The notes under the pieces were generated by a model. It saw only the letters and a program-made list of their open reading frames with translations. It had not been told where the DNA came from and did no database searches. 49,131 nt of DNA, taken from positions 1 through 49,131 of the forward strand of contig MCFE01000658.1 in the NCBI GenBank assembly GCA_002104905.1, given 5' to 3'. The position numbers were made by a program, and so were the translations under genes. Below are positions 7,809 through 49,131 of this stretch, piece by piece. Each line of letters starts with the position of its first letter. The stretch's first letter is position 1. The stretch comes from Basidiobolus meristosporus CBS 931.73. Its lineage: Eukaryota > Basidiobolomycota > Basidiobolomycetes > Basidiobolales > Basidiobolaceae.

Positions 7809-10800
7809 CTAGCGACTGTTGGATCGGAACTTGGCGATCACGAACCCGGTGACCACGATGTTGAACAGCCAGAACATGCACATGAAGCCAAAGTTCCGCC
7901 AGCGGTGATGATAACTCCATCCCAGGGGAACGAAGAAATCATCTCCCAGGGAAGCAGAGCAGTACTCACACCCGGTTGTGGCGTTGTAGTTGTTCAAATA
8001 GCCGGCGGCCTTCGTCAGGAATTGGCCAGCGTATTGTCCGCAGGTTTGACCAGAGGGTGGATTGAATACATAGAATTCGTCCGGCTTGCAGGTCACTTTG
8101 AAGTTGTGTAGCTCGTTGACCACTAGCCCTTCGATCCAGTAATGGAATGGATCTAACCAGTACATCCATGCTCTCCAGAAACCTGGCATCGAGTTGTGAG
8201 GGACAACCACACCGCAGAACAGATTGAGCATGGAGAAGAAGAAGGGGTTGAGTAAGGCGGCCATTTGCTTGCTGGACGAGAATGAGGCGATCATTTGGCC
8301 TAAGGAGATGGTAAAGAAGGCGAAGACGACATACATGAGCCACGAGTAGATGGCATGGGCAGAGGCCTCGCTGTAGCCGCATATGTAATAGAAGATCAGC
8401 CAGAATGTGGTGATGGTCACCAAGAGGAACGGAAGCTCGGTTAGCATGATGGAGAGCCAGAAGGGCTTCCATCCGTACATTTTACTGGAATGCTCCCTGT
8501 TGTAGACGTTACGTTCCTCGATGAATCTAGGCTGGGACAGATTCATGAAAATCGTCCCCATGACGGAAGACTGGAAAAGAGCGAACACACGCGCCTGTAA
8601 CTCTCCTTGACTGTGACCCATCTTGTAAAACGAAAAGCCAAGAAGAAGGGAGAAAACGGTACAGAACATGTGCCTTCCGAGGTTGTAGGTGGGGTTACGC
8701 CACCACGAGAGAGCCATTCTGGTCCAAACAACCTTCAGCTGGGTACCGAATGGAGTGGCAAACTCCCGCTGGTTTTTCAGCTCCTCCCTGGTCAACTGTT
8801 TGGGAGTGATATGATCAAGTGTTTGTTGTGTTTGCTTCTTTTCGGGGGACTCGTTCCATATGGATGGCCAATCCAAGGCCCGTTTATCATTGATGACATC
8901 AAGAATATATTCAGCTGGGTTGGCATCAGGAGCACAAGAAGGAGCACCGTTACGCTCAAAGTAGCCCAAGATAGTCTTCGAGTCAGGGCCCAGTTCTCCG
9001 AAGTAGACGGTCTTACCACCGCGAGCAAGGAGCAACATGTGGTCGAAGAAGTCGAAGAGGACCGCACTCGGTTGATGGATGGTGCAGAGAACAGCCTGAC
9101 CCTGGTTAGCCAACTTGCGCATGAAACGGATAATGTTGAAGGCAGCCTGTGCATCCAGGCCAGACGTTGGCTCGTCGAGAAAGACCAACTTGGGCTTGGC
9201 GACCAACTCTACACCAATGGTCAGACGTTTACGTTGCTCTACTGAAATGCCAACACCAGTTTCGACATCTCCGATGACAGCATCAGCGATATCCTCCATT
9301 TCCAGAAGTCTGATGATCTCCTCTACATAGGCATCTTTCTCAGCCTTAGACACCTCTGCAGGCTGTCTAAGGTAAGCGGAGAATTGGAGGGATTCTCTCA
9401 CGGTCACGGCAGGGTTGTGGACATCCATCTGCTCGCAATAGCCAGTGGTACGTTGGAAATCTGGGCCAATTGGACGCTCATCCACCAAAATATCGCCCGT
9501 CACTTTACCGATAGACTTACGTTGAGCTAGCACATCCAGAAGCGTCGTCTTGCCTGCGCCAGAAGCACCCATAAGAGCAGTCATCTGGCCTGGCTTGACC
9601 CAACCATCAATTTTGTTCAGCAGCTGTTTACCTTCAGGGAATCCTTTGGCCGGCACTACGTAGTCAATGTTGTGCCAGGTGAAAGTGGTCCCCTGAAGCT
9701 GGATATCATCGGACTTCTCATCCACCTTCACTCTTGATTCCTGGCCTGTCTCTTGGGCGAGTTTTTTTGTGGGCTTGAACATGTTCAAGGTGAATCCCCC
9801 TCTTCCGAATTGCTTGACCTCCATGGCAATCATGGCGAGGATGGAGTACAACACCCACCAGCAGATAACAGTGACCGTGTCTTTCCACATATCGTGGGTA
9901 TTGTAGCCGAACGATTTAATCAAATAGTCGGCGCCATCCACGTAATTCACACCAGGCTGACTGCCAGCCAGGGTGCATGTTTGATAGTCGATGTTGGTAT
10001 ATCCAGGCCCCCTGGGCACCAGGTCAAACTCAGAGCATGTAAATCGTAGCCCGTGGAACTCGTTGGACATCAGTGCTTTGAAGCCATAGGCAAGCGGATT
10101 GATCCAATAGATCCATACAAACCAACCGTGCATATTGTTCTGAGGAATCAGGTATCCGGTGTACAGAAGAAAGGCTACAAGCACCAGGCCTGACGTACGG
10201 GTTGCCACGTCGAAATTCGGCGAGTAGGCAGCGAACATTCGGAAGTAGGCCGTGAGACTGAAACTGCATACCAATAGAATAAACATAAAGTTGAAGAACT
10301 TTCCAGCTTCTGCCTGCAGACCAGCAGTCCAGTATAGAATGACCGAGAACAGGATGATCTGTATCATCATGAACGGGATGTCCGCAACCATCTGGGCAAT
10401 GTAGTAAGCGCTTGGATAGTAGAAGGCAAATGACTTGTGTTTGTACAGGATCGAACGACCGCTCATAGCAGTTGGGACTTCAGCCTGTGCCACTAGGGAG
10501 TTGAAGAGGAGCGAAAAGAATAGAACACCACCACGTGTAAAAGCCCCCGAGGTGTTATCGGTCGGAAGCTTGAGGAAGGCGGTGCCTACAATGGCTGCCT
10601 TAATCAGGATAGACGAGTAACGGGATATAAGGGCGGCCCGGTCTCCGAGAGTCAGTTGGAACTGACGAAGCGTCAGTGCTTTCACTTGCTGTACGTAGGA
10701 GGTGGTGTATGGGGATTTGTTTGGAACGTGTTTTTGTTTAGATTCCTCGACATGTTTTCGGAAATCCTTCTCAGGTGCGGCTCTACTCAGGTAGTCCTCA

Positions 10801-12173
10801 TACTCTGCTCTCTCTTGTTGCATTCTTTGATATATGTGGGACTTCTTGTATGCCTGCTCCATTGCCTCAGATGTCTGTGGAATTTGATCTTCCATCCCCG
10901 GAGTGATCTTGCGTTCATGTGGATCTGTGACTGCAGTAAGGAAATCTGAGGTGGTCTGGCGAGGTACGTCTTGGAATCCAAGGGAGATGAAGTATTGTCT
11001 GGCTTCTGTGGCGGGCCCGAAATAGACACAACGCCCCTCGTCTAGAACCAAGACCTTGTCGAACTCACGGTAGATACTCTCCGACGCTTGGTAGATTGTA
11101 ACCAGAGTAGCTTTGTGCATAATGTTGGTCATGATGCGCAATGATTTAATGTAGCTCAGTGCGGATGAAGCATCCAATCCCTTGGTACTGCCATCCCACA
11201 TGTTAATGGCCGCACGGGCAGTCATCTGCTCAGCAATAGATAGACGCTTTCTTTCGCCACCAGAGACACCGCGGACAAACTCGTTACCAACCAGGGTATG
11301 AAGAGTGTGCGACAGACCAAACATCTTCAACAACGTGTCTCGGACGTTCTGAACAAAGGATTTCTTGTTTTCGTCGGGCAATCGCTTCCCTGGCGTCTTG
11401 CACTTCAGAGCAAAGTTCATTGTCTCCTGCACGGTAAGAGTCGGGAAATGGAAGTCATCCTCGGGGTTGTATGCTACCTCGCCAGTGTACTTCTTGGCAA
11501 ATTCTTCTGCGGAAATGCCACCGTAAGAGACGTCCCCTTCGATCTTCTTGTACTGCTTTCGCTCATTTGAAAGCACTCTCAACAGGGTGGAGCAACCAGC
11601 GCCTGGCCTACCCAGTACAAACAGCATCTCTCCGTCTTTGCAGAAGCCATCGATTTCGTGGAGGATCACCCTCCCTTCATCCTTGTCACCATGTTCGCGT
11701 TTGGCAAATGGGTTGAATAACCTCCCCAACTTTCGGAATGGGGTTCCACAATCAGGGGCATATACTCGGCCAACCTTATCTCCAATCACAGTTAGATTCT
11801 TGAATGTTAATCCGATTCGCTTCTCCTTGATGTCGGCATTTTTGTTTTGCAGGCATTGTGTTTGAAAGAAATCGTTCAGGTCGAAACCGTCATCTTCGCG
11901 GCCTTCCTCCAGGACGGTATCCGAGCTTGCCCGTGCGCTTCTCTGATGGATGGTCGATATGCGAGAGAGCTCTCTTCGTAGATCTTCGTATTCTCCGGTG
12001 GCTCCAATGACGTCAATGTTTGGCTCACCCTCGCCCCAGTCACCGGTGGACCCCTCGGTGTCGAAATGTGTGCGGACTCTCAGATTGGTGTCTTGAGTCT
12101 TCTCTTTCTGGCCCTCGTCTCCAAGCACGGTAGAGCCGCTGTGGCAACTCTCACGCTCATTATTAGATGACAT
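7809..12173 (-). CDS. Full-size PDR-type (ABCG) ABC transporter
   Basis: Intronless 1454-residue ORF with the (NBD-TMD)2 order of fungal pleiotropic drug resistance pumps. NBD1 has the PDR-specific Walker A GRPGAGCST (residues 188-196; Cys replaces the usual Lys), signature VSGGERKRLSIAEQ and the altered Walker B/D-loop MWDGSTKGLDAS. NBD2 has a canonical Walker A GASGAGKTT (about 868-876), the degenerate signature VEQRKRLTIGVEL and LVFLDEPTSGLDAQ. These asymmetric sites are normal for the family, in which only one composite site hydrolyses ATP. Each NBD is followed by about six membrane helices and an extracellular loop rich in Cys. Expected role: plasma-membrane efflux of xenobiotics or lipids. 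The N-terminal 110 residues are acidic, Ser/Thr-rich and probably regulatory. Convergent with the TM9 gene, 276 bp apart. Confidence 0.97.
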   Translation of the reverse strand: MSSNNERESCHSGSTVLGDEGQKEKTQDTNLRVRTHFDTEGSTGDWGEGEPNIDVIGATGEYEDLRRELSRISTIHQRSARASSDTVLEEGREDDGFDLNDFFQTQCLQNKNADIKEKRIGLTFKNLTVIGDKVGRVYAPDCGTPFRKLGRLFNPFAKREHGDKDEGRVILHEIDGFCKDGEMLFVLGRPGAGCSTLLRVLSNERKQYKKIEGDVSYGGISAEEFAKKYTGEVAYNPEDDFHFPTLTVQETMNFALKCKTPGKRLPDENKKSFVQNVRDTLLKMFGLSHTLHTLVGNEFVRGVSGGERKRLSIAEQMTARAAINMWDGSTKGLDASSALSYIKSLRIMTNIMHKATLVTIYQASESIYREFDKVLVLDEGRCVYFGPATEARQYFISLGFQDVPRQTTSDFLTAVTDPHERKITPGMEDQIPQTSEAMEQAYKKSHIYQRMQQERAEYEDYLSRAAPEKDFRKHVEESKQKHVPNKSPYTTSYVQQVKALTLRQFQLTLGDRAALISRYSSILIKAAIVGTAFLKLPTDNTSGAFTRGGVLFFSLLFNSLVAQAEVPTAMSGRSILYKHKSFAFYYPSAYYIAQMVADIPFMMIQIILFSVILYWTAGLQAEAGKFFNFMFILLVCSFSLTAYFRMFAAYSPNFDVATRTSGLVLVAFLLYTGYLIPQNNMHGWFVWIYWINPLAYGFKALMSNEFHGLRFTCSEFDLVPRGPGYTNIDYQTCTLAGSQPGVNYVDGADYLIKSFGYNTHDMWKDTVTVICWWVLYSILAMIAMEVKQFGRGGFTLNMFKPTKKLAQETGQESRVKVDEKSDDIQLQGTTFTWHNIDYVVPAKGFPEGKQLLNKIDGWVKPGQMTALMGASGAGKTTLLDVLAQRKSIGKVTGDILVDERPIGPDFQRTTGYCEQMDVHNPAVTVRESLQFSAYLRQPAEVSKAEKDAYVEEIIRLLEMEDIADAVIGDVETGVGISVEQRKRLTIGVELVAKPKLVFLDEPTSGLDAQAAFNIIRFMRKLANQGQAVLCTIHQPSAVLFDFFDHMLLLARGGKTVYFGELGPDSKTILGYFERNGAPSCAPDANPAEYILDVINDKRALDWPSIWNESPEKKQTQQTLDHITPKQLTREELKNQREFATPFGTQLKVVWTRMALSWWRNPTYNLGRHMFCTVFSLLLGFSFYKMGHSQGELQARVFALFQSSVMGTIFMNLSQPRFIEERNVYNREHSSKMYGWKPFWLSIMLTELPFLLVTITTFWLIFYYICGYSEASAHAIYSWLMYVVFAFFTISLGQMIASFSSSKQMAALLNPFFFSMLNLFCGVVVPHNSMPGFWRAWMYWLDPFHYWIEGLVVNELHNFKVTCKPDEFYVFNPPSGQTCGQYAGQFLTKAAGYLNNYNATTGCEYCSASLGDDFFVPLGWSYHHRWRNFGFMCMFWLFNIVVTGFVIAKFRSNSR

Positions 12174-29755: not shown

Positions 29756-32700
29756 ATGTCTGCTCCAAAAGCCAACTCATATGAGGCACCGCCCAACCAA
29801 ACCCGAGCAAATGGCCAATCCACTCACGACGCAGAGTCTGGTGATATCTTCTCCCCGTACCAACCGCTTGAATCCCCGTCCCGTTTTTCTGACTACACAC
29901 ACACACCACTAGAGCTTAATAATATACATGACCAAGGTGAAGTCGAGTCCCGTGCTCTCGAGGAGCAACCGTCGCTAAATACACCTCGCAGACAAAGATC
30001 CTTAGTACGGCCAGAACGGCACCCTTCGGAGCGCAGATACCCTCGCCGCGTAAGCGGAGTCGATGGAGATGTCATGTCTGACCGTTCAAGGGCCCACAAA
30101 CACCCTGCTTTGGATCGGAGTGGCAGTACCTTCCGTTCTCTTAAGGGAGGAAAATCAGCAGGAGGATCACATTCACAGAAAGGGCGCAGATGCCCTTCAG
30201 TATGGCAAATGTTTGCTACATGTGTTACCTGTTACGCTCCAAATCCATTGCTCTCATGTTGTGGTTAGTTGATGTTGACCCTAGTTATCATTAATGAATC
30301 TGAATATTGATCCTTGCTTACTCAAGGTATGAAAACCAACGAGATCCGTCGAGCCTGGCGCGAAAAGATGGCCCTATGCACCATCATTATATTGTTATGT
30401 GGAGCAGTAGGCTTTTTGACATTCGGTTTTCAACAGGTGTTATGTGGATTTTCTAGCACCGCCAACCGAGTAAAGCATGGCTCTTTACAAGCAACAGATG
30501 CAATTATCAATGGCAAAGTCTATAGATTGACTGGTTTCACCCATCCACCTGCAGCCAATATTCCACAAGATGGCAATCTAAGCCCAGTTATTGGAGGCCA
30601 GGACGTCTCTTTCCTATTCCAAAGTGCGAATTCCCACTGTAAAGGAATTCTCAATGTCCAATCCGGGGATGCTTCTAGTTACTTCCCTTGCGTTGCGCGA
30701 AACTCAACTGCAGTATCCAATCCATCCGAAAATTCCGATCGTGCTGCTTGTCATAGCCCATCGGCTAGTGCCAGAGTTAAGCAGCTGAAGTTTATTGGAG
30801 ATATTTACTACGAATGGCCAGATATATTGAAGAAGGACAGAAACTTTGTCGTTTACAATGGTCATGTTTTGGACATCGACCTCTTGAAATGGTTGGTTCC
30901 AGGGGTTCAAACACCGGCTATTTTTAACGACCTACTCCGACCCGACTCACCTTACCGCGGCAGTGATATCACGTTTTTCATGGGGAACTACCATCGTGCA
31001 GAGGCTAAGTGTGCGATGGATCTACTCAACGTTGGTGTGTTGGATACCCAATCGATGGGTTGCATAATATCAAATGTTGTTCTGTATGTTTCGCTCATTG
31101 TGATTCTTGGTGTTGTGCTTGCCAAGTTTTTCCTGGCTGTCTACTTTGGTTGGGTGTTGAGCTGGCGACTAGGCACGTTCCGTGAAGAGACTTACGAGGA
31201 ACGCATGAAAAGGCTAGAGGCCATTGAACAATGGAGTGAAAACCCTAACCGACTTGCTGTCTCTGCAAACATGCGCGGAACCAGTAGTTTCCTTCCTCAC
31301 GTAAGTCGCTATACGGCGCCTCCACCGATTTACGACGTCAAGCGAAATAGCTATACTCCGCGTCCTGTGAACAATTCCAGCAACTCCCTTTTGATGGTGA
31401 ATACTGGAGTCCAACGGACCCCAATTGCAACTAGAAATGGTCCACCCGATTCTCCTTATTCACAAGTATCAGGGTATAGCTCCTCAACATTTGGATCCAA
31501 TTTGCATGTGCCTCCAGCTCCACCACCACCTAGTTTCCAACCTTTCAACTTCACTCTGGCGCACACTATCCTTCTAGTCACATGCTATTCCGAAGGCGAG
31601 CTTGGAATGCGCACTACTCTGGATTCACTTGCGTTGACTGACTATCCAGAATCTCACAAGTTGATCATGGTCATTGCTGATGGAATAATCAAGGGTGCTG
31701 GAAATGAGTTATCTACGCCCGATATCTGCCTATCCATGATGAAAGATTTCGTCATTCCGCCGGAGAGCGTTCAGCCTTACTCATATATTGCTATTGCGGA
31801 CGGAGTCAAACGCCACAATATGGCCAAAGTATACGCTGGCTATTACAAGTTCGACAACGCGATCATATCTGCAGATAAGCAGCCTAGAGTCCCCATGATT
31901 CTCATTTCGAAATGTGGCAACGCCGAGGAGCAGAATCTACCGAAACCAGGAAACCGTGGTAAGCGCGACAGTCAAATCGTGCTAATGTCATTCCTGCAGC
32001 ATGTGATGTTCAACGACCGCATGACCGAAATGGAATACGAGCTGTTCAACGCTATGTGGAGCGTTACCGGAGTTAGCCCCGACAATTTCGAGATCGTTCT
32101 CATGGTTGACGCAGACACCAAGGTATATCCTGATTCGGTAACTCGTATGGTATCGTGCATGGTCCTTGACCCTCAGATTATGGGACTCTGCGGTGAAACC
32201 AAGATTGCCAACAAGCGAGACTCTTGGGTGACAATGATTCAGGTGTTTGAGTACTACATCTCTCATCACCAAAGCAAGGCGTTCGAATCTATTTTCGGTG
32301 GCGTGACCTGTCTTCCCGGATGCTTCTGCATGTATCGCATCAAGGCCCCGAAGGGGCCCAATGGCTATTGGGTACCCATTCTAGCTAGCCCCGATATTGT
32401 GGAGCACTATAGCGAGAATGTGGTAGACACATTGCACAAGAAAAATCTATTGCTGTTGGGCGAAGATCGGTACCTCACCACTCTCATGCTACGTACCTTC
32501 CCAAAACGAAAGATGATGTTCGTTCCGCAGGCGGTGTGCAAAACCGTTGTCCCAGACACGTTTGGCGTCCTTCTCTCGCAACGTCGTAGATGGATTAATT
32601 CCACCGTGCACAACCTTCTCGAGTTGGTTTTGATTCGGGATCTTTGCGGTACGTTCTGCTTCTCCATGCAGTTCGTGGTGTTCATGGAGCTGGTCGGTAC

Positions 32701-33286
32701 TGTTGTGCTACCAGCAGCCATTTCCTTCACCATCTACTTGGTTATCATCTCCTTCTTCACAACGCCCGTGCCTATCATCCCGCTCATACTTCTCGCCATC
32801 ATTCTTGGCTTGCCCGCCATACTGATCTTAATGACCACCCGGAAGATCGTGTATGTCGGGTGGATGTTGGTTTACCTACTCTCACTGGTCCTATGGAATT
32901 TCGTTCTACCCACCTATGCATTCTGGCACTTCGACGATTTCAGCTGGGGTCAAACACGACAGGTTGAAGGGGAAGCTAAAGGGGGAAGCCACGGTGATAA
33001 GGAGGGAGAGTTTGACGGGTCGAGAATCAACATGAAGAAATGGAACGAGTTCGAAAAGGAGAAGCGTCGAAAGACCAATATTCTCATCTCCCAGTTGGAC
33101 CTGACTACCGAGTCACACCAGAGCTTGGACAAGCTCGGTTACCACACACCCAGCGAATTGGCCAGATTGTCCAGCATTAACTTCAGGGATAAGGAGGGAT
33201 TCCCCTCGAGTGATGCAGACAATGAGATCGAGGTCGACTTCCCCGGAGGGAACACCGGCCGTGAGCGCCCAACCACACAAAAATAA
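29756..33286 (+). CDS. Class IV chitin synthase (Chs3-like)
   Basis: Two exons (29756-30263, 30327-33286), 1155 residues. A disordered, basic N-terminus leads to two membrane segments (MALCTIIILLCGAVGFLTF and VVLYVSLIVILGVVLAKFFLA) around a large extracytoplasmic region. The GT2 catalytic core contains VTCYSEGE, IVLMVDADTK (about residue 763), the acceptor/product motif FGGVTCLPGCFCMY, LLGEDRYLTTLM (about 881) and the QRRRW signature (about 920), followed by three to four helices forming the chitin channel. The set defines division 2, class IV enzymes, which polymerise UDP-GlcNAc into wall chitin at the plasma membrane. There is no myosin motor, excluding classes V/VII. The Lys/Glu-rich tail is probably cytosolic. 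It converges on a RhoGEF gene; Rho signalling controls wall synthesis. Confidence 0.97.
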
Positions 33287-40295: not shown

Positions 40296-40480
40296 TTTTA
40301 GGGCTAGGGGGGAGACACTCACCAACAGGTGAAATCTTTATTACAGTTGAAACAAAGAAGCCAGTGCTACTGTTGAGCTTTGATACAAGAATGTGTAGGT
40401 AAGGGGAATTTGTAGGTTAGTTAATCAGGAGAGATGATAGTTATTCAGTGCTCAAGACATTGTTCAGTGGGAAGGTGGGA
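40296..40480 (-). mobile_element. 5'-truncated copy of the telomere-attached LINE (oldest of three)
   Basis: About 180 bp matching the 3' end of the LINE at 44198-48702, in the same orientation. It starts with TTTTAGGGCTAGGGGGG, a degraded telomeric seam, then GAGACACTCACCAACAGGTG, and ends within CAGTGGGAAGGTGGG. It is more diverged than the copy at 48703, hence older, and is cut by Copia element A at 40487. Confidence 0.85.
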
Positions 40481-40486
40481 TGAAAA

Positions 40487-40835
40487 TGTTGTAAAAATTT
40501 GTAATTCCACCTAAATATTCACCTAACTTAGTCACTTTGATCATTATCCTCAAATCCTAGAGAATACTGACCAAATTCCTTGTTGGGATTTACTTAGAAT
40601 ATTTTCACCAAAATACCAGGTACCCAGAACATGAAAATTCTCAAAGTTGTCCAAACAGCCCCAAACTTTGCACACATGCTTTTGGGACCTTCCTTAACCT
40701 ATTCTACATGTTTGTAATGCCAAGACCAGGTAAAAGTATAAATACTACTTTTACATTCAATAAATCATTAAGTGAAAACCACATAATCTACTTGTTCTCC
40801 AAATCACTTTCAATATCTCCAAGACTCTTACAATA
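40487..40835 (+). repeat. 5' LTR of Copia element A
   Basis: 349 bp, beginning TGTTGTAAAAATTTG and ending CTCTTACAATA (CAACA in sister copies). TATA box AAAGTATAAATAC at about 40733 for the element promoter. Confidence 0.95.
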
Positions 40836-40847
40836 GGTTATGAGCCC
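40836..40847 (+). other. Half-tRNA primer-binding site (initiator tRNA-Met)
   Basis: GGTTATGAGCCC directly follows the LTR and is the reverse complement of GGGCUCAUAACC, the anticodon stem-loop of eukaryotic initiator tRNA-Met. Drosophila copia and yeast Ty5 prime from this internal site of a cleaved tRNA rather than its 3' end (family knowledge). The gag ATG (40840) lies inside the site, opposite the anticodon. Repeated at 44060-44071 in element B. Confidence 0.85.
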
Positions 40848-41648
40848 CAGGTTGTTACTCTCTGCAATGTCTGCTACTGCTATTACTGGAATTTTTCCCT
40901 CTGCTGAAAAGTTGGATGGATCTAACTACCAAGTGTGGAAGGTGAAGATGAAGATGCTGCTACAAGAAAGAGGCCTTTGGGATATTGTCATGGGAGAAGA
41001 ATGCCCTCCTAAGAATGTGGGAGAGGAAGCCTTAAAGTACCAGAAGAAAGAACAAAGTGCCTTTAACTGCATTTGCCTTAATGTTAAAGACAAGTTGCTA
41101 ATTCAATGCTCAACAGCAAAAACAGCAAAGAATACCTGGAAGGCATTAGAAGACACCTACCAGTTATGTTCAGCTGCTAAGAAAATTTATCTGGGACAAA
41201 AACTCTTCATTACAAAGATGCTGCCAGGAGAAGAAATGAAAAATCTAATCAACAGAATTACCCTGCTGGTAGATGAAATGGAATCTGTGGGTGTACCAGC
41301 TACTGATGAGGATATGATAGTTACCATCCTGAAAAGCCTGACAGACAAGTTTCAGGGCCTTGTATCAGCCCTAGAGTCCAGAACTGAAGATTTGACCTTA
41401 AATTACGTATATGGAAGACTCCTGGATGAAGAATTAAGAAAGTCAAGCACCAATAAGAAAGAAGAAGAAAATGCTTTAATAAGTAATGATAACCAACAAA
41501 GGAGGTACCCAAGACCCTACAAAGGCAACAGCAACCTGTCTTGTAACTACTGCAAAAGGAAAGGACATACATCACACTGGTGCTTCAAAAAGAAAGATAG
41601 TCAGCAGAAAAAGCCTGAATATGCAAATGCTGCAACAACTGAAGATTG
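40840..41648 (+). pseudogene. gag of Copia element A, interrupted by a solo LTR
   Basis: Open for 269 codons. The N-terminus reads FPSAEKLDGSNYQVWKVKMK, the retrotran_gag_2 (UBN2) start, followed by a helical capsid region and a CCHC zinc knuckle CNYCKRKGHTSHWC near the end. The reading frame runs into a solo LTR at 41649. Across the insertion the next in-frame codons are TGA CTA, then the protease region. Gag forms the particle; here it cannot be expressed with pol because of the insertion and later stops. Frame and length otherwise appear intact. Confidence 0.9.
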
Positions 41649-41998
41649 TGTTGTAAAAACTTGTATTTCCACCTAAATAATCACCTAACTTAGTCACTTA
41701 GATCATCACCTTCAAATCCTAGAGAATACTGACCAAAATTCCTTGTTGGGATTTACTTAGAATATTTTCACCAAAATACCAGGTACCCAGAACATGAAAA
41801 TTCTCAAAGTTGTCCAAACAGCCCCAAACTTTGCACACATGCTCTTGGGACCTTTTTCAACCTATTCTACGTGCCTGTTATGCCAAGATCAGGTAAGAGT
41901 ATAAATACTACTTTTACATTCAATAAATCATTAAGTGAAAACCACATAATCTACTTGTTCTCAAAATCACTTCTAATATGTCCAAGACTCTTACAACA
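41649..41998 (+). repeat. Nested solo LTR with target-site duplication
   Basis: 350 bp from TGTTGTAAAAACTTG to CTCTTACAACA, flanked by the direct repeat GATTG (41644-41648 and 41999-42003). The perfect 5-bp duplication shows that a complete element inserted here and then collapsed to one LTR by recombination. It is inserted at the gag/protease junction of element A. Confidence 0.95.
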
Positions 41999-43709
41999 GA
42001 TTGACTATTTATATTTGCACTAAATATGACCACAAATAATGATTCTCTGATGTGGTATATTGACTCTGGAGCATCTCAACACTTTACACACCAAAAAGAA
42101 CTTTTTACCCAATATCAAGAAATTCCAATTAAGAAGGTTTTCATGGGTGACGATAGAACACTCAATGCAGTGGGAGAAGGAACTATCCAAGTAAACCTAA
42201 GAAGCAGTGAAGGAAGCCATACACTGACTTTCAAAGAAGTACTCTGTGCACCAGAAATAGCCAAGAACTTACTATCTGTAAGCAAGGCCACTGCAGTAGG
42301 ACTCAGTTTCAGTTTTGACAATTCTGGATGCAAGATCACTGATCAAAATGGTGCCCATATTGCTTTGGGTATCCAAGATCAGAATCTTTACTAGTTGACT
42401 TATATTCCATCATATTTGGGAGTCAATATAAGTAACTTAAATGAAGAAACAGCAATGCTTTGGCACAGGAGATTTGGGCACATCAATTTTGATTATTTGC
42501 GCAAAATGATCAAAGATCAGCTAATTTCTGGAGTAAAAATTGATCCCCCAGCTAATTTGGAGCACTGTGAAGCCTGCATATATGGGAAACAAGCCAGACA
42601 ACAGTTCAAAAGCTCTGGGATAATCAAAACTAAGAAATAATTAGATCTAATTCACTCAGATCTGTGTGGACCTATGCAAATTTATCCTTAGGTGGGATGA
42701 AGTATTTAATCACTATTATTGATGATTATACAAGATACACATGGGTCTACTTCATGGAGAGAAAGGAAGAAGCTCTGTCTAAGCTCAGGCAGCTTAAAGC
42801 CATGTTGGAGAGAGAAACTGGTGAAAAAATCAAGAAAATACACTCTGACAATGGTGGAAAACATACCTCAGAACTCTTCATCCACTTCTGCAAAATTTAT
42901 GGGATTAAGCAAGAGACTACTGTACCATACTCCCCACAGCAAAATGGGGTAGCAGAATGTGCTAACAGATCAATAATTTATATGGCAAGATCTATGATCC
43001 ATGATTAAAAATTACCATATGATTTTTGGGTAGAATTAGTTGCCACTGCTGTATATCTTAAAAGTAGAAGTTATAACTGATTACTTTGTGGTTCTACTCC
43101 ATTTGAAGCATGGTATGGATACAGACCAAGTGCAGAACATCTAAGAATACTTGGGTGTACAGCATATGCCAAGAAACCACCCAGAAATCTGTCAAAATTT
43201 GAGCCAAAAGGTGTTAAATGCATATTTTTGGGCTACTGCAATGAGAGTAAAGCATACAGACTCTACAATACCAAAGCAAAGAAGCTAATCAAGTCCAGGG
43301 ATGTGTTATTTGATGAGAATTCAAAATTTTCACAAAAAATGACATCATATGATGACAAAAATCTGATCTCAAGTCCACCAATTTTCAGGATTGAATCAGA
43401 GCAAAAAATTGAAACTTTTTTCACTCCAGAGGACTCTATAACCATGGTTCAGCCAGAATCAGTGCCCAGGAATATCCCAGAAGTGATCTTTCCAGAATCA
43501 AATGCCCAGAGATCTATTTGGACAAGAAATAGCCCAAATTACTATATCATTGAGGGTACAAACTTAGCCTACACCTATTCAGTCGATATTGATGAACCCC
43601 AGACTGTAAAAGAGGCCCTAAATAGCCCTCAGGCAAAGTTTGGGAGATCTGCAATGACTGAGGAATATCAGGCCCTGATGGAAAATCAAACTTGGAACTT
43701 AGTCAATTT
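41999..43709 (+). pseudogene. Protease-integrase-RT start of Copia element A
   Basis: After TGA CTA (42002-42007) the frame encodes an aspartic protease with MWYIDSGASQHFT (catalytic DSGA), then the GAG-pre-integrase zinc motif LWHRRFGHINFDYL with CEACIYGKQ, the integrase core with IIDDYTRYTWVYF, HSDNGGKHTSE and SPQQNGVAECANR (D, D, E triad), and the beginning of RT. In-frame stops occur at about 42392, 42638, 43006 and 43078, and a frameshift near 42690. Where the ancestral residue can be guessed, the stops look like single-base changes from Gln, Trp or Arg codons. No functional protein is possible. Confidence 0.9.
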
Positions 43710-44197
43710 TGTTGTAAAAATTTGCATTTCCACCTAAATATTCACCTAACTTAGTCACTGAGATCATTACCTTCAAATCCTAGAGAATACTAACCAACTT
43801 CCTTGTTGGGATTTACTTAGAATATTCTCACCAAAATACCAGGTACCCAGAACATGAAAATTCTCAGAGTTGTCCAAACAGCCCCAAACTTTGCACACAT
43901 GTTCTTGGGACCTTCCTTAACCTATTCTACGATGTCTGTAATGCCAAGACCAGGTAAAAGTATAAATGCTACTTTTACATTCAATAAATCATTAAGTGAA
44001 AACCACATAGTCTACTTGTTCTCCAAATCACTTTCATTATCTCCAAGACTCTTACAACAGGTTATGAGCCCTGAGCTGTCACTCTCTGCAATGTCTACTA
44101 CTGCTATTACTGGAATTTTTCCCTCTGCTGAAAAGTTGGATGGATCTAACTACCAAGTGTGGAAGGTGAAGATGAAGATGCTGCTACAGGAAAGAGG
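43710..44197 (+). mobile_element. Terminally truncated Copia element B
   Basis: A 350-bp LTR (43710-44059, TGTTGTAAAAATTTGCA to CTCTTACAACA), the primer-binding site GGTTATGAGCCC (44060-44071) and the first about 44 codons of gag (ATG at 44064, same SAEKLDGSNYQVWKVKMK start as element A). Identity with element A stops after GAAAGAGG at 44197, where GTTAGGGGGGG and the LINE begin. It inserted in the RT region of element A. The abrupt end marks a former chromosome end. Confidence 0.93.
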
Positions 44198-44236
44198 GTT
44201 AGGGGGGGAGACAGTCACCAACAGGTGAAATCTTTA
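44198..44236 (-). promoter_or_regulatory. LINE 3' terminus: poly(A) signal, hairpin and telomere-complementary end
   Basis: On the coding strand the ORF2 stop is inside AAATAAAG, followed by TCACCTGTTGGTGA (5-bp stem, 4-nt loop) and CTGTCTCCCCCCCTAAC. There is no poly(A) tail. The layout suggests recognition of a stem-loop by the reverse transcriptase and annealing of the end to TTAGGG DNA. Confidence 0.75.
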
Positions 44237-47032
44237 TTTCAGTTGAAACAAAGAAGCCAGCGCTACTGTTGTAGCTTTGATACAAGAGTGTGTAGCTGAA
44301 GGGGAATTTGTAGGTAAGTTAATAAGAAGTGATGATAGTTCTTCAGTGCTCAAGACACTGTTCAGTGGGAAGGGGGGTAGCAAGAGAGGTAAGAATGACT
44401 TGTGAACAACATTAATGAGGGGAATGTGATAAGGATTGATATTCATCATAAAGGGAGTGTGCTGCTTCAGATATTGCTGCCAAAGGTCTGTCAAGTACTT
44501 CAGGTAGGCCAGCTTGGGGTTTTCTGACTGCAGAATAAATTCAGCAAACTTCTTGACTTCAGGATCTCCAAGTATAGCTCTCCAGCAGGAGCCAGGTGTT
44601 GTGTGGTGTGTTCTCTTCCAGGCCTTAATCAGTGGGTTGTTGCAGTTGTGAAGTCTGAGGTATAATCTGGTTCTAAGGCAAAGAAGTCTGATCTTATAGG
44701 GCATGAACCCAAAAGCACCAAGAATAGCATGTCTGTAGGGGCATTCAGGCAAATGAGGCACCAAGGAGGTAATGCACCATACTGCAAACTTGTCAAGCTT
44801 AGTGCAGTCTCTAGAAGTAAGAGAGAGAAGTGGTAAGCCAAATTCCAGGACAGGGAAGACAAACTGCTTGAGTAGAAGAAGGCAGCTGGGAGCTGAAGTT
44901 GTAGGAGGAGTAACAGCCAGTAGCTTGTGGAGTGCCTGTCTTGCTAGGATAATTCTCTTCTTCAGGTGTGCTCCAGAGTCTAATCCAGTAGGAAGGAAAG
45001 GAAAGCCAAGATATGTAGCAGAAACCTGAGCAGGTAGAGTGGAGTTCTCCAAGTTGATGGGAGAGCCCAAAGGTACTGTCTTTGCAATGGAAAGCTGGAG
45101 ATTATTCTTCTGCAGATACTGGTGGATGGTCTGGGAGTCTTGTTGCACATTGGAGGAGGATATTCTGATGTCATCAGCAAAGAGAGTAACCAGGCAGTCA
45201 GCTGAGAGTCTTGGGAAATCATTCAGGAAGATGGCAAACAGTATAGGACCAAGCACAGAGCCTTGAACCACTCCATTAGGAACTGAGAACACAGCTGATT
45301 GCTCACTTGGGTGCAGAATTCTTGCTTGTGGATCCAGAAACAGAGACCTGACAAGGAGGGTGAGAGAGGTACTGGAGAAGCATTGCAACTTGGACCAAAG
45401 CAGATTTCTGTCAACTGAATCAAAGGCCTTAGTAATATCAAACAGAACAGAGGGATACTTGCACTGGAGAGAGTGATCTTGGCTAAGTATGACTGCATAT
45501 TCCAAGGAGAGGCCAGGAACAAAGCCAAACTGTGCAGGATGAAACTTGAGAGAGTCAGAGTAGAGCTCCTGAGCAAGCAGAAGCTCAAACACCTTTCTGC
45601 AGGTGGGCAGCAGAGATATTGGCCTGTAGGAGCTAGGATCCAGGTGCTTTCCTTTACCCTTGTACAGTGGCAGAACATTTGCAAAGGACCATTCCTCAGG
45701 AGTAGAAAGCTGGGCTGAGCATTGCTGAAACAGTGGAAGCAGAAGTGCAGACATGGCCTTGGTACTAGTCTTCAGAAGCTCATAGGAGATTGTGTCCACA
45801 CCTGGAGCAGTAGAGTTGGAAAGCCTCTTGAGCACATTATGGATTCTCCTTTGATCAAGTGCAAGTGGGATGGGCAGAGTCTTGAAGTCAGGATGAAAGC
45901 CAGGAGTTGAGTACTGCTTTGTAGAGAAGAAGATGTTAGCCAGCTGTTCTGTTGAAGGTAACTTCCTGGAAGAGGGCCTCATTGCCCTGTAGAGTCTTGA
46001 TACTGTTCTTGTTATAGAGTTGGAAGATTGCAGAGGCAAGGAACTCATAATATGATCCCAGAGCTGAGTATGCAGAGTGTGGTGAATTGCCTTGGAGTGG
46101 TGTATTGCTGTCAGGAGGAGTTTCTCTGTTTTTGGGTTAGGGAAGCTCAGGTAGCTTTGTTGCAGGGCTGAAACAATGGATTCCCATTTTCTTGAGGTAA
46201 CAGCAGTAGTCTTGCATGGCAGTGAGAGGGAGGCAGACACCAGAATCAGATGCTTCACAAAGAGCCAGGCATAGTTGAGATCATCTGGCAGAGAAAGTAG
46301 CAAACTGGCAAGCTTCAAGTAGTTCCCAAAGTCTTTCTTCTGATTCTTGGTAGCTTTGTGGGTGAGCACAGTAAGTTTTGGCAGCTTCTTCTTCACAACT
46401 GGTTGCATAGAAAGGGACCAGGCTGGGTGGTCAGAGGCTCTCAAGGATCCTAGCTCAGCTCCAGAGAATTGCTTAACTTCATTCATAAAGTAGAGGGCAG
46501 CAGCAGAAGGGCAGATCCAGTCAACACATCTTTTCTCAGATTGAGCACCTAGTGCTAGCAGGTGGCTTTCTCTCAGGAAGTTCAGTAGGAATGTAGACCT
46601 TGGCTTCATTCTTGCAGTCAGAGTAGTCTTGTTCTCAGGATAGGGAATGTTGAGATCTCCAAGCAAGATAACAGGTGTTGATATAGATTGTTGGTATTGC
46701 TGAACCTTCTGGCATATAACTTGCACTTCCTGAAGGGCTAGACTTGGAGGCAGATAGCAGAGCACCAGACTGATAGTTGGCAACTGGAGAGCAGCACAGT
46801 AAGGGGAGTAAAGAGGAACACAGAGCTGAGGAGTATTGATGGTAGAAGAGATGAAGCAGATAGAGGAGGTATTCTTTGTTCTAGGAGTAGAAAAGCAATA
46901 TAGATTAGTCAAAAGTATAGAGGGTAGCTGGACATCAATCAAACACAGGAGGGAAAATCTTGAAAGAAGTCTCTCTAGAGTTGGTCTTGATGGCTGTATG
47001 CTGTTGCAGTTAAGCAACAGAACTTCAGGTAG
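44234..47032 (-). CDS. LINE ORF2: endonuclease-like domain and reverse transcriptase
   Basis: About 930 codons, in the same frame as ORF1 and directly after its TGA (47033-47035). No ATG occurs until after the endonuclease GDLN motif, so readthrough or non-AUG initiation is needed. N-terminal exonuclease-endonuclease-phosphatase fold: LLLNCNSI, LCYLPPS, VILLGDLNIPYPEN, CVDWICPS and ASDHPAW. The expected metal-binding Glu of the IQEP-type motif reads VQLP. Reverse transcriptase: SSYRPISLLPTCRKVFE, QFGFVPGLS, SVLFDITKAFDSVDR, VPNGVVQGSVLGPILFAIFL and the catalytic LFADDIRIS. A helical C-terminal thumb/linker follows; no RNase H or Cys-rich knuckle is evident. It should copy the LINE RNA onto a chromosome 3' end. 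Confidence 0.92.
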   Translation of the reverse strand, partial: LPEVLLLNCNSIQPSRPTLERLLSRFSLLCLIDVQLPSILLTNLYCFSTPRTKNTSSICFISSTINTPQLCVPLYSPYCAALQLPTISLVLCYLPPSLALQEVQVICQKVQQYQQSISTPVILLGDLNIPYPENKTTLTARMKPRSTFLLNFLRESHLLALGAQSEKRCVDWICPSAAALYFMNEVKQFSGAELGSLRASDHPAWSLSMQPVVKKKLPKLTVLTHKATKNQKKDFGNYLKLASLLLSLPDDLNYAWLFVKHLILVSASLSLPCKTTAVTSRKWESIVSALQQSYLSFPNPKTEKLLLTAIHHSKAIHHTLHTQLWDHIMSSLPLQSSNSITRTVSRLYRAMRPSSRKLPSTEQLANIFFSTKQYSTPGFHPDFKTLPIPLALDQRRIHNVLKRLSNSTAPGVDTISYELLKTSTKAMSALLLPLFQQCSAQLSTPEEWSFANVLPLYKGKGKHLDPSSYRPISLLPTCRKVFELLLAQELYSDSLKFHPAQFGFVPGLSLEYAVILSQDHSLQCKYPSVLFDITKAFDSVDRNLLWSKLQCFSSTSLTLLVRSLFLDPQARILHPSEQSAVFSVPNGVVQGSVLGPILFAIFLNDFPRLSADCLVTLFADDIRISSSNVQQDSQTIHQYLQKNNLQLSIAKTVPLGSPINLENSTLPAQVSATYLGFPFLPTGLDSGAHLKKRIILARQALHKLLAVTPPTTSAPSCLLLLKQFVFPVLEFGLPLLSLTSRDCTKLDKFAVWCITSLVPHLPECPYRHAILGAFGFMPYKIRLLCLRTRLYLRLHNCNNPLIKAWKRTHHTTPGSCWRAILGDPEVKKFAEFILQSENPKLAYLKYLTDLWQQYLKQHTPFMMNINPYHIPLINVVHKSFLPLLLPPFPLNSVLSTEELSSLLINLPTNSPSATHSCIKATTVALASLFQLK

Positions 47033-47035
47033 TCA
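47030..47035 (-). promoter_or_regulatory. Candidate leaky stop (TGA CTA) between LINE ORF1 and ORF2
   Basis: ORF1 and ORF2 occupy one frame and are separated by this single stop. UGA followed by CUA is a known efficient readthrough context in several plant and animal virus and cellular genes. ORF2 lacks a nearby ATG. Readthrough would give an ORF1-ORF2 fusion. Confidence 0.65.
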
Positions 47036-48475
47036 GGCAGAGGTTGTAGCTTCTTCAGAGGCAGCATTAACAATGTGACCTGCAGAGTCCCAGAGCTCTT
47101 CAAATGGTGCATCACTTAAGTCAGCAAGGAGGGAAATGGCATGGTTCCTGAGGAAGTATGCCACATCATAGGAGGGGGCTTGTCTCTTGATGGCAGCAAG
47201 GAAAGACAGAATGGCAACATGGGCTGGAGGCTTGTTGAACAGTAGAGAGTCAGAGGATTCAGATTCTTCAGGCACTATCTTGAAGTCAGTTTTCAGCCAG
47301 TTAAGGTTCTTCTCCACAAAGGCAACAAATGGGTCAGCAATGTTTTGGTCTAGGATAACCTCCAGAATCTTCCCTTTTCTCCAGGCCAGGTTGACAATTC
47401 TTGAGAGCTGAATATTGCATGCCTTGAGTGCTTTCCTGATGTTGGAAATGGGGGTCCAGGGAACTTGCTTCAAGTACACCACAGTCCAGGTAGAAGCTGG
47501 TGGTAGGTTTGCTGGGGGCTTGTAAGTCCTTCTGTGTTGCAATGGAGCTGCAGTAGTCAGATTGGAGTCCACATTCTCAGTAGAAGGTTTTCTTGATGTG
47601 TCTTGCTGAATAGTACTGGAGCTGGATGTGCTGATAATTCTTGCTAGAACCTTGCCTGCATAAGTCTGAGGTATAGCTGAGATGACTGTAGAGGTGGTGG
47701 CAGCTGGTGCAGGTGGAGAGGCAGAGACTGAAGCAGGAACTGAGGTCACCTGGGAGAAGGCAGTAGAAGCAGGTTTTCTGGGAGGAACAGAGTTCACTAT
47801 CCAGTTGTTCTGTAAAACACTGGAGTAGCTTTTCTGTGGAACAGGATCTTGCTCTTGAACAGGAACAGAAGCAGGAGGCTGGGGCTGAGCAGTAGTGGTA
47901 AGGCAGTGGCACTCCAAGGAAGCTTTTTGCAAGGCATCTCTGGCAGTTTTCAGGGCAGTATTGGCAGCCTCTAAATCAGCAATTCTCTTCTCAATTGCAA
48001 GGAATCTCTGAAGAAATGCATCAGTAGAAGTGCTGGCATCTGGGAGAGCAGTGGCAGGAATAGAGTCCATTGACAGTGGGCTTCTTGGAGGCAAGGAAAG
48101 TGGACTGGCAGATTCAGGCACAAAAGGAGATATCCTGGCAGGAGGAGAAGGAGTATCCAAGGCAGTAACAGAGGCAATTCTTGTTGGTGAAGCAGCAGCA
48201 GGGGAGGCAAGCCTGTTCAAAAACTGGGCAGGAGAGAGTGCTTGGGGAGAGGGAGTCTTCAGCTTGCCAAGCATGTCTTCCATCAGAGTGATACCAATAT
48301 TCCTGGTGCATTTGCAGAGAAAAGTAAGCTTCCTGAGTCTGCCAGCTCTTCCATTCCTTCTGATAGTACCTTTGTTTCCACAGTTGGGGCAAGATATCTT
48401 CTTGACAGACTTGTCAAAGCAATCAAGAACCTTCCTTTCAGGTGTAGTGGGCTTCTGTTGAGGTTTTAGTGGCAT
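47033..48475 (-). CDS. LINE ORF1: zinc-ribbon RNA-binding protein
   Basis: 480 residues from the ATG at 48475 (the frame is open a little further up, to 48502). A zinc-ribbon-like motif lies near residues 25-55: KISCPNCGNKGTIRRNG, then LTFLCKC. A Ser/Pro/Ala-rich linker follows, then a short coiled coil (LAIEKRIADLEAANTALKTA), more low-complexity sequence, and an RRM-like segment at about 330-400 (TWTVVYLKQVPW, IRKALKACNIQLSRIVNLAW, KILEVILDQN). It probably coats the LINE RNA and guides it to telomeres. It ends TCT GCC TGA followed by CTA, in frame with ORF2. Confidence 0.88.
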   Translation of the reverse strand: MPLKPQQKPTTPERKVLDCFDKSVKKISCPNCGNKGTIRRNGRAGRLRKLTFLCKCTRNIGITLMEDMLGKLKTPSPQALSPAQFLNRLASPAAASPTRIASVTALDTPSPPARISPFVPESASPLSLPPRSPLSMDSIPATALPDASTSTDAFLQRFLAIEKRIADLEAANTALKTARDALQKASLECHCLTTTAQPQPPASVPVQEQDPVPQKSYSSVLQNNWIVNSVPPRKPASTAFSQVTSVPASVSASPPAPAATTSTVISAIPQTYAGKVLARIISTSSSSTIQQDTSRKPSTENVDSNLTTAAPLQHRRTYKPPANLPPASTWTVVYLKQVPWTPISNIRKALKACNIQLSRIVNLAWRKGKILEVILDQNIADPFVAFVEKNLNWLKTDFKIVPEESESSDSLLFNKPPAHVAILSFLAAIKRQAPSYDVAYFLRNHAISLLADLSDAPFEELWDSAGHIVNAASEEATTSA

Positions 48476-48544
48476 ATCCAGAGTTTCAGCTTCAAATTTC
48501 AATTTTTGAGATTTTTGGGTGATTTTTGATGGGCGGGATCAAAA

Positions 48545-48558
48545 TTAGGGTTAGGGTT
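48545..48558 (+). repeat. Internal telomeric repeats in the LINE leader
   Basis: TTAGGGTTAGGGTT, just over two telomere units, 70 bp upstream of the ORF1 ATG. Either part of the element's 5' leader or a relic of a telomere seam. Confidence 0.85.
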
Positions 48559-48633
48559 GCGCGCTGTGACTGCTTTTTACGATCGCAAGGTCAGATCCTA
48601 GGAAAAAATAAAAATAGTTAGTAAAGGTGATTT

Positions 48634-48653
48634 AATGGATGGATGGATGGATT
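48634..48653 (+). repeat. GGAT tetranucleotide repeat
   Basis: ATGGATGGATGGATGGATTT, four units, in the presumed LINE leader. Confidence 0.8.
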
Positions 48654-48702
48654 TGGAGTCAGATTCAATCAAAAAATCAAATTGTTGACTAATTTAAAGA
48701 GG

Positions 48703-48882
48703 GTTAGGGGGGAGACAGTCACCAACAGGTGAAATCTTTATTTCAGTTGAAACAAAGAAGCCAGCGCTACTGTTGTAGCTTTGATACAAGAGTGTGTAGC
48801 TGAGGGGAATTTGTAGGAAAGTTAATAAGAAGTGATGATAGCTCTTCAGTGCTCAAGACACTGTTCAGTGGGAAGGGGGTAG
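48703..48882 (-). mobile_element. Second, 5'-truncated telomere-attached LINE
   Basis: About 180 bp nearly identical to 44203-44373, beginning after GGGTTAGGGG with GGAGACAGTCACCAACAGG and ending in CAGTGGGAAGGGGGTAG. It keeps only the last about 50 codons of ORF2 and the 3' end. The telomere begins immediately after it, so it is the most recently added element at this end. Confidence 0.93.
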
Positions 48883-49131
48883 GGTAGGGTTAGGGTTAGG
48901 GTTAGGGTTAGGGTTAGGGTTAGGGTTAGGGTTAGGGTTAGGGTTAGGGTTAGGGTTAGGGTTAGGGTTAGGGTTAGGGTTAGGGTTAGGGTTAGGGTTA
49001 GGGTTAGGGTTAGGGTTAGGGTTAGGGTTAGGGTTAGGGTTAGGGTTAGGGTTAGGGTTAGGGTTAGGGTTAGGGTTAGGGTTAGGGTTAGGGTTAGGGT
49101 TAGGGTTAGGGTTAGGTTAGGGTTAGGGTTA
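48880..49131 (+). repeat. Terminal telomere, (TTAGGG)n
   Basis: About 250 bp of TTAGGG repeats running to the window edge, G-rich strand 5' to 3' outwards, so this is the right chromosome end. The inner edge is irregular (GGGGGTAGGGTAGGG), as expected at a healed junction. One shortened unit (TTAGG) occurs near 49113. Confidence 0.98.

Follow-up and report, generated by a model that had tools for sequence, protein, structure and literature searches.

Retrotransposons that occupy chromosome ends are already known from a restricted range of lineages. In Drosophila, HeT-A, TART and TAHRE form head-to-tail arrays whose 3' ends point inward, and the Athena Penelope-like elements of rotifers and some fungi, which are likewise telomere-associated, are primed by the 3' end of the G strand and carry short telomeric repeats at their junctions. 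SART/TRAS, GilM/GilT, Zepp1, MoTeR1, an anole Tx1, Athena and the Drosophila set are listed together as telomere retrotransposons in one publication (PMC10088271), and FoTeR is described in passages of another (PMC12857005). Here, a long interspersed nuclear element (LINE) is described from a stretch of 49,131 nucleotides of the fungus Basidiobolus meristosporus CBS 931.73, hereafter the window, which is the entire contig C933 (MCFE01000658.1) of an assembly of 89,006,234 bases in 1311 contigs. This LINE has a partner resembling a short interspersed nuclear element (SINE) with which it shares its tail, and both are probably added onto receding chromosome ends, the 3' end of the chromosome priming the synthesis of the new copy.

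MoTeR1 and MoTeR2 of Magnaporthe and FoTeR of Fusarium resemble the Basidiobolus LINE in being fungal elements without long terminal repeats (non-LTR) at chromosome ends, with the 5' end terminus-ward and truncated copies in tandem; passages on these elements also describe TTAGGG ends, tandem repeats on the 5' side and MoTeR2 as a non-autonomous partner (PMC7367193, PMC12857005). The Basidiobolus LINE nevertheless differs from the known fungal elements in its nuclease type, its seams and its partner. MoTeR and FoTeR combine a reverse transcriptase (RT) with a restriction-like endonuclease (CRE group), whereas the Basidiobolus LINE carries an N-terminal endonuclease of APE type. MoTeR2 shares both ends with MoTeR1, whereas only the 3' tail was observed to be common to the LINE and the SINE-like element. 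The 3' sides of FoTeR hold 3-7 repeats, whereas most Basidiobolus seams hold fewer than three. Athena differs as an endonuclease-deficient element of the Penelope type, the Basidiobolus element having a LINE-like RT with an APE domain. The tandem arrangement with the 3' end inward, typical of HeT-A, is found again in Basidiobolus, but Drosophila is without telomerase or short repeats whereas in Basidiobolus a TERT domain is present alongside terminal TTAGGG. The Drosophila elements insert at broken chromosome ends, as stated in part of a published account (PMC4700185).

An earlier note, made from the letters of the window alone, had read its last 5 kb as a 4.5-kb LINE followed by a truncated copy, head-to-tail between a broken Copia element and the terminal (TTAGGG)n. 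This layout was confirmed for positions 44198-49131, as were the interior-facing 3' ends of both copies and the G-runs of their seams (Table 1). The 5' end of the window LINE, AAAGAGG, is also found in other copies, and its coding strand finishes ..GTCTCCCCCCCTAAC. After GAGG, the other gag copy of the window reads CCTTTGGG and has only GG in common with the seam. The GTTAGGG at the window seam was therefore read as added, since that other gag copy diverges after GAGG. A native GGGTTA in Copia was considered as the priming site in the window and rejected, the two gag copies showing only GG as native.

Table 1. Features at the LINE-bearing end of the window (positions in the 49,131-nucleotide stretch)
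Feature	Position	Strand	Remarks
Third, older LINE 3' fragment	40307..40479	-	same orientation, 92% identity, degenerate seam TTTTAGGGCTAGGGGGG
Two tandem partial Copia copies	40487..44197	+	LTR-like starts at 40487 and 43710; second copy cut at the LINE seam
Proximal seam, GTTA + seven G	44198..44208	+	joins Copia gag (cut at 44197) to LINE 3' end
LINE RNA 3' double hairpin and C-run	44203..44262	-	minimum free energy -15.8, z -3.51, 0/200 shuffles as good
LINE, near full length	44209..48702	-	5' end (48702) on telomere side, 3' end (44209) on interior side
Open reading frame (ORF) 2	44234..47032	-	APE-type endonuclease at residues 1-211; RVT_1 at residues 466-678
ORF1 frame, 489 aa	47033..48502	-	ends TGA then CTA, in frame with ORF2
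Telomere-like TTAGGGTTAGGGTT (+ strand reading) within LINE 5' region	48545..48558	-	
Tandem-repeat unit in LINE 5' region, ~99-103 bp	48600..48702	-	one unit here; seven rows in contig C370
Second seam, GTTA + six G	48703..48712	+	joins LINE 5' end to the following copy at its 3' end
Second LINE copy, 5'-truncated	48713..48882	-	alignment 48707-48882, 97.8%
Terminal (TTAGGG)n telomere tract	48883..49131	+	Tandem Repeats Finder row 48876-49131; 252 bp measured

The LINE 3' end was searched for in all contigs as a 25-mer with up to two mismatches. The 914 matches comprised 828 forward and 86 reverse ones (control 0/0), and the LINE 5' end pattern was found at 53 places (52 forward, 1 reverse). 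The SINE 3' end gave 501 matches (462 forward, 39 reverse) and Copia 1459 (822/637). A telomere 48-mer occurred 5821 times forward vs 62 times reverse in contig orientation, the telomeres of this assembly lying mostly at the right contig end. Because the contigs are mostly telomeric on the right, orientation was tested relative to the contig end, on contigs of known length of at least 50 kb to the exclusion of short ones and those of unknown length. The places tested were the usable ones among the 53 LINE 5' ends and, for the other patterns, all usable ones among the first 100 listed for each, the latter a sample by contig number and not a random one.

Pooled over LINE and SINE, 130/131 places have their 3' end inward and 130/131 lie at most 25 kb from a contig end. 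For LINE 5' ends these figures are 34/34 and 33/34, for SINE 3' ends 28/28 and 28/28 and for SINE 5' ends 26/26 and 26/26; an earlier count on partly overlapping places gave 37/37, 22/22 and 28/28 inward. The Copia control was 3'-inward at 15/30 places and within 25 kb of an end at 10/30, against 8.9 expected. The earlier note had named copies mostly at internal sites without telomeric seams, or in random orientation, as the outcome that would refute its reading; this outcome did not appear, and among seam-bearing LINE ends 42/43 face inward and 43/43 lie at most 25 kb from the end. The sole outward copy, C355:154770, is an inverted scrap of ~50 bases on a telomeric contig. At G000:C355:154680-154900, two LINE 3' scraps stand in inverted arrangement near the telomere. 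The copy at C746:88525 is inward in name only, being internal and interrupted by Copia-like sequence; its 3' end was not found in the stretch inspected.

Such a distribution might be imitated by an assembly artefact in which repeats gather at contig ends and telomeres are mis-joined, and the 1311 contigs with their odd orientation bias could be cited for it. However, Copia, despite its 1459 matches, shows neither end nor orientation bias. Among 21 left contig ends, read over 3 kb each, 20 were without telomere repeats in the first 600 bases, and the start of C291 was not telomeric. LINE sequence was present at three of the 21. In C32 and C45, both shorter than 20 kb, it runs forward relative to the contig; in C291, a pair of copies faces inward. 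The 20 non-telomeric left ends thus hold it at the two short contigs only. Contig C424 (G000:C424:1-312558) is telomeric at both ends, with CCCTAA repeats and a SINE 5' end at its start mirrored by a SINE 5' end and TTAGGG at its end, and is probably a complete small chromosome. An artefact of this kind is hardly credible. The number of telomeric right contig ends can be put at ~264 (5821 / 22.05 per end, the latter from 20 ends) vs ~3 left ones. Microscopy of B. ranarum, as reported in part of one source, points to many small chromosomes, from ~60 to many hundreds (PMC3281927). The ~264 telomeric ends fit numerous small chromosomes, a count that separate haplotypes may inflate.

The seams were read at 92 3' ends, 61 from the 914 LINE matches and 31 from the 501 SINE matches; one SINE end with a short upstream part was dropped, leaving 91. 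The G-run is immediately preceded by TTA at 47/61 LINE and 23/30 SINE ends (70/91) vs 22/796 other runs of at least four G in the same loci, and the G-run is 6 or 7 long in 50/61 LINE ends. Genome-wide, GTTAGG followed by the LINE end within 0-8 bases gave 416 matches, the seam of the window thus recurring throughout the assembly, and GTTAGG within 0-8 bases of the SINE end gave 332; a few ends are counted twice in both figures, and the controls (read backwards for the LINE) gave 0. The telomere-like part of the seam, including the G-run, has a median of 13 bases; it is at most 24 bases in 88/91 and 50 at the longest (C713). A partial repeat stands at most seams, and long proximal tracts were not seen among the 91. 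By contrast with these short seams, terminal telomere tracts of 115-252 bp were found at 20/27 chosen right contig ends. They are preceded by LINE sequence in 15 cases and SINE sequence in five. The gap between element and tract is at most 15 bases in 19 cases, and in the remaining one (LINE) it is 48 bases. It is mainly because the seams are short while the terminal tracts are long that addition to tract-poor ends is favored, rather than because of any match in repeat phase.

At 57/91 seams, another LINE or SINE copy lies on the inner side; it is truncated in 30 cases and in the rest stands at, or one base off, the full 5' end. In 23 of the 30 truncated-element junctions, all of the added bases keep to the telomere phase, which is extended by 1-4 native bases. 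These native bases average 2.30 vs 0.72 in simulation (0/20000), and the mean is still 1.77 (0/20000) if the other seven junctions are taken as zero. Such micro-homology was rejected as proof of priming by the RNA tail, as healing by telomerase leaves the same mark.

SART1 and TRAS1 of Bombyx offer another explanation. They too are LINEs tied to telomere repeats with recognition of the 3' untranslated region, and the fold of the Basidiobolus endonuclease matches that of R1Bm EN. They insert inside (TTAGG)n, and SART1 needs at least three repeats, according to part of a published description (PMC7265360). In the same manner, the Basidiobolus endonuclease might nick duplex (TTAGGG)n at a single phase, so that the element enters the tract, with contraction or breakage then leaving short proximal remnants. 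Random insertion into tracts of 115-252 bp should, however, often leave long remnants, contrary to the seam lengths given above. The Basidiobolus seams, mostly of fewer than three repeats, also stand on varied DNA, many of them consisting of just 0-7 added bases. Insertion within the tract is considered unlikely, although it deserves more weight than the other alternatives.

Recombination between chromosome ends, by break-induced replication or unequal exchange, might also have built most of the arrays, with retrotransposition rare or past. Some seams do recur, and for MoTeR ends part of one report documents recombination (PMC7367193). Nonetheless, most of the 45-base strings upstream of the seams are distinct (85/91).

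The element is a non-LTR retrotransposon of APE type, with a LINE-type RT and an N-terminal APE-like endonuclease. The RVT_1 match of ORF2 in Pfam reaches 2.8e-25, and the best fold matches of the LINE protein are L1 ORF2p and R2. Kinship with MoTeR and the CRE group, which the earlier note had brought up, was rejected on the APE fold; no restriction-like endonuclease C-terminal to the RT was found by Pfam, beyond which no motif search for one was made. The endonuclease catalytic set (ORF2 residues 8, 33, 93, 126, 128, 171, 201 and 202) is complete save for Glu to Asp at residue 33. This change is common to the relatives P0001 and P0003, so that Asp stands in the three rows of their clade that reach the site, whereas Glu stands in 43/47 rows overall; the altered active-site residue also counts against nicking in the manner of SART/TRAS.

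No Pfam match above cut-off was obtained for ORF1. ORF1 and ORF2 lie in one frame, split by UGA-CUA (47030-47035, minus strand), a junction identical in 29/29 other copies at which programmed readthrough is possible. The window ORF1 is without 66 in-frame bp (~47950-47966, +/-1-2 bases) that are present in 29 other aligned copies; a 15-base overlap appears in the alignments at this gap. The C-terminal end of ORF2 in the window copy (44234-44300) is unlike that of the predicted protein P0005 and its relatives, which suggests that the frame shifts close to the end of this copy. The 29 LINE copies diverge by 0.5-1.9% from the window copy. Nonsynonymous and synonymous changes number 43/42 in ORF1 and 14/15 in the part of ORF2 that was read, ~0.4 of the neutral ratio, and these substitution counts show copies with open frames to be under constraint. 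Both the low divergence and the constraint on the frames argue against recombination as the main source of the arrays.

The RT tree comprised the window protein and 55 database relatives taken from among the best 120 of 3679 matches. The window protein and P0001-P0004 and P0007 form a clade of six rows (support 100/100) on a branch of length 2.05. This clade joins, at 94/97, a group of 18 rows that includes the four named fungal proteins, from Mucor and Umbelopsis; the placement carries a long-branch warning. P0005 and P0006 are public B. meristosporus predicted proteins and are read as translated stacked LINE pieces; the Pfam labels on P0005 look spurious. P0006 was rejected as a sister LINE family since the predicted protein spans stacked pieces, its first part resembling P0007 by eye. 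Three LINE pieces stacked in this way are seen at 103341-104520 of contig C474.

A frequent neighbour of the LINE is a non-coding SINE-like element of 521 bases, absent from the window apart from the shared tail. It shares chromosome ends, orientation and seams with the LINE. Its last 30 bases match the LINE end at 27/30 (E 2e-6), and its own 3' double hairpin has a z of -2.21, with 7/200 shuffles as good. The second stem, UCACC/GGUGA, is identical in both elements while the loops differ; in the first stem, the inner bases differ between LINE and SINE but the pairing is kept in both. To our knowledge, the known LINE/SINE pairs disperse through the genome, whereas both Basidiobolus partners go to chromosome ends. 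The structured 3' tail shared by the two is nonetheless the trait of stringent pairs. In those of the UnaL2 type, the SINE borrows the structured 3' tail of its LINE, as set out in part of one source (PMC3747384). The LINE protein is the putative mobilizer of the SINE-like element. The occurrence of the same seams on an element of unrelated body speaks once more against recombination, which is judged very unlikely as the main origin of the arrays.

For the SINE-like element, the searches gave 501 3' ends vs 259 5' ends; for the LINE they gave 914 vs 53. Judged from these patterns, roughly one SINE copy in two is full length, whereas full-length LINE copies are few. The 5' head of the SINE-like element contains A- and B-box-like motifs at positions 12 and 55, 43 apart, with one mismatch each to the box patterns; none of 3000 shuffles and none of 3000 random stretches matched as well. 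A tRNA origin of this head was not confirmed, ARAGORN giving no call in eight loci and Rfam no tRNA match.

The preferred reading, addition to receding ends, can be put as a series of steps. A chromosome end would lose its TTAGGG tract, leaving a 3'-OH with a few telomere-phase bases (e.g. GG, GTT or TTA), and this eroded 3' end would pair with the 3' terminus of the element RNA, which is rich in C (..CUCCCCCUAACC) and would be held by the LINE protein via the 3' double hairpin. The 3'-OH would then prime a new copy, laid down with its 3' end inward, and the full-length or truncated copy would be capped by telomerase or receive a further copy, repeated rounds giving rise to arrays. The short telomeric seed may either be copied from the RNA tail or be laid by telomerase just before. 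The retained endonuclease leaves room for a nick-primed route. Motifs like CCCTAACCC occur near the telomere-facing 5' end of both the LINE (48545-48558) and the SINE head, and could possibly serve as built-in seeds.

A loss of telomerase was considered and rejected, given the TERT domain and the terminal TTAGGG. At C880, Telomerase_RBD matches above cut-off, split into two pieces of which one contains an internal TAG. The statement of the earlier note that the LINE caps chromosome ends consequently stands in the structural sense and falls as regards a substitute for telomerase. As for the mechanism it proposed, end location, orientation and seams were borne out, while we infer the priming by the chromosome 3'-OH and the annealing of the RNA tail. 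More tentatively, and with rather less confidence than addition to receding ends itself, LINE and SINE might form a back-up for end healing beside telomerase. RNAs with telomere-complementary tails would be reverse transcribed onto eroded 3' ends, laying a one-repeat seed, and the SINE RNA, as a putative product of RNA polymerase III, would in effect play the part of a second telomerase template, one of great length, by which whole chromosomes are capped.

No report of the Basidiobolus LINE and no telomeric SINE was found in the searches made of open-access papers, and the main text of PMC10088271 contains no word beginning with 'SINE'. With the present element, an APE-type LINE joins this set from an early-diverging fungus in which telomerase is retained, and the SINE-like partner at the same ends is of a kind not found in print by this open-access search. 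The several hundred junctions in one genome amount to many natural tests of the priming of a retrotransposon by the chromosome 3' end, and bear on the long-standing problem of the relationship between telomerase and retrotransposons. Elsewhere in the window, the gene-bearing part holds intron-free frames for a PDR-type ABC transporter and a chitin synthase, at 7809-12173 and 30314-33286, respectively.

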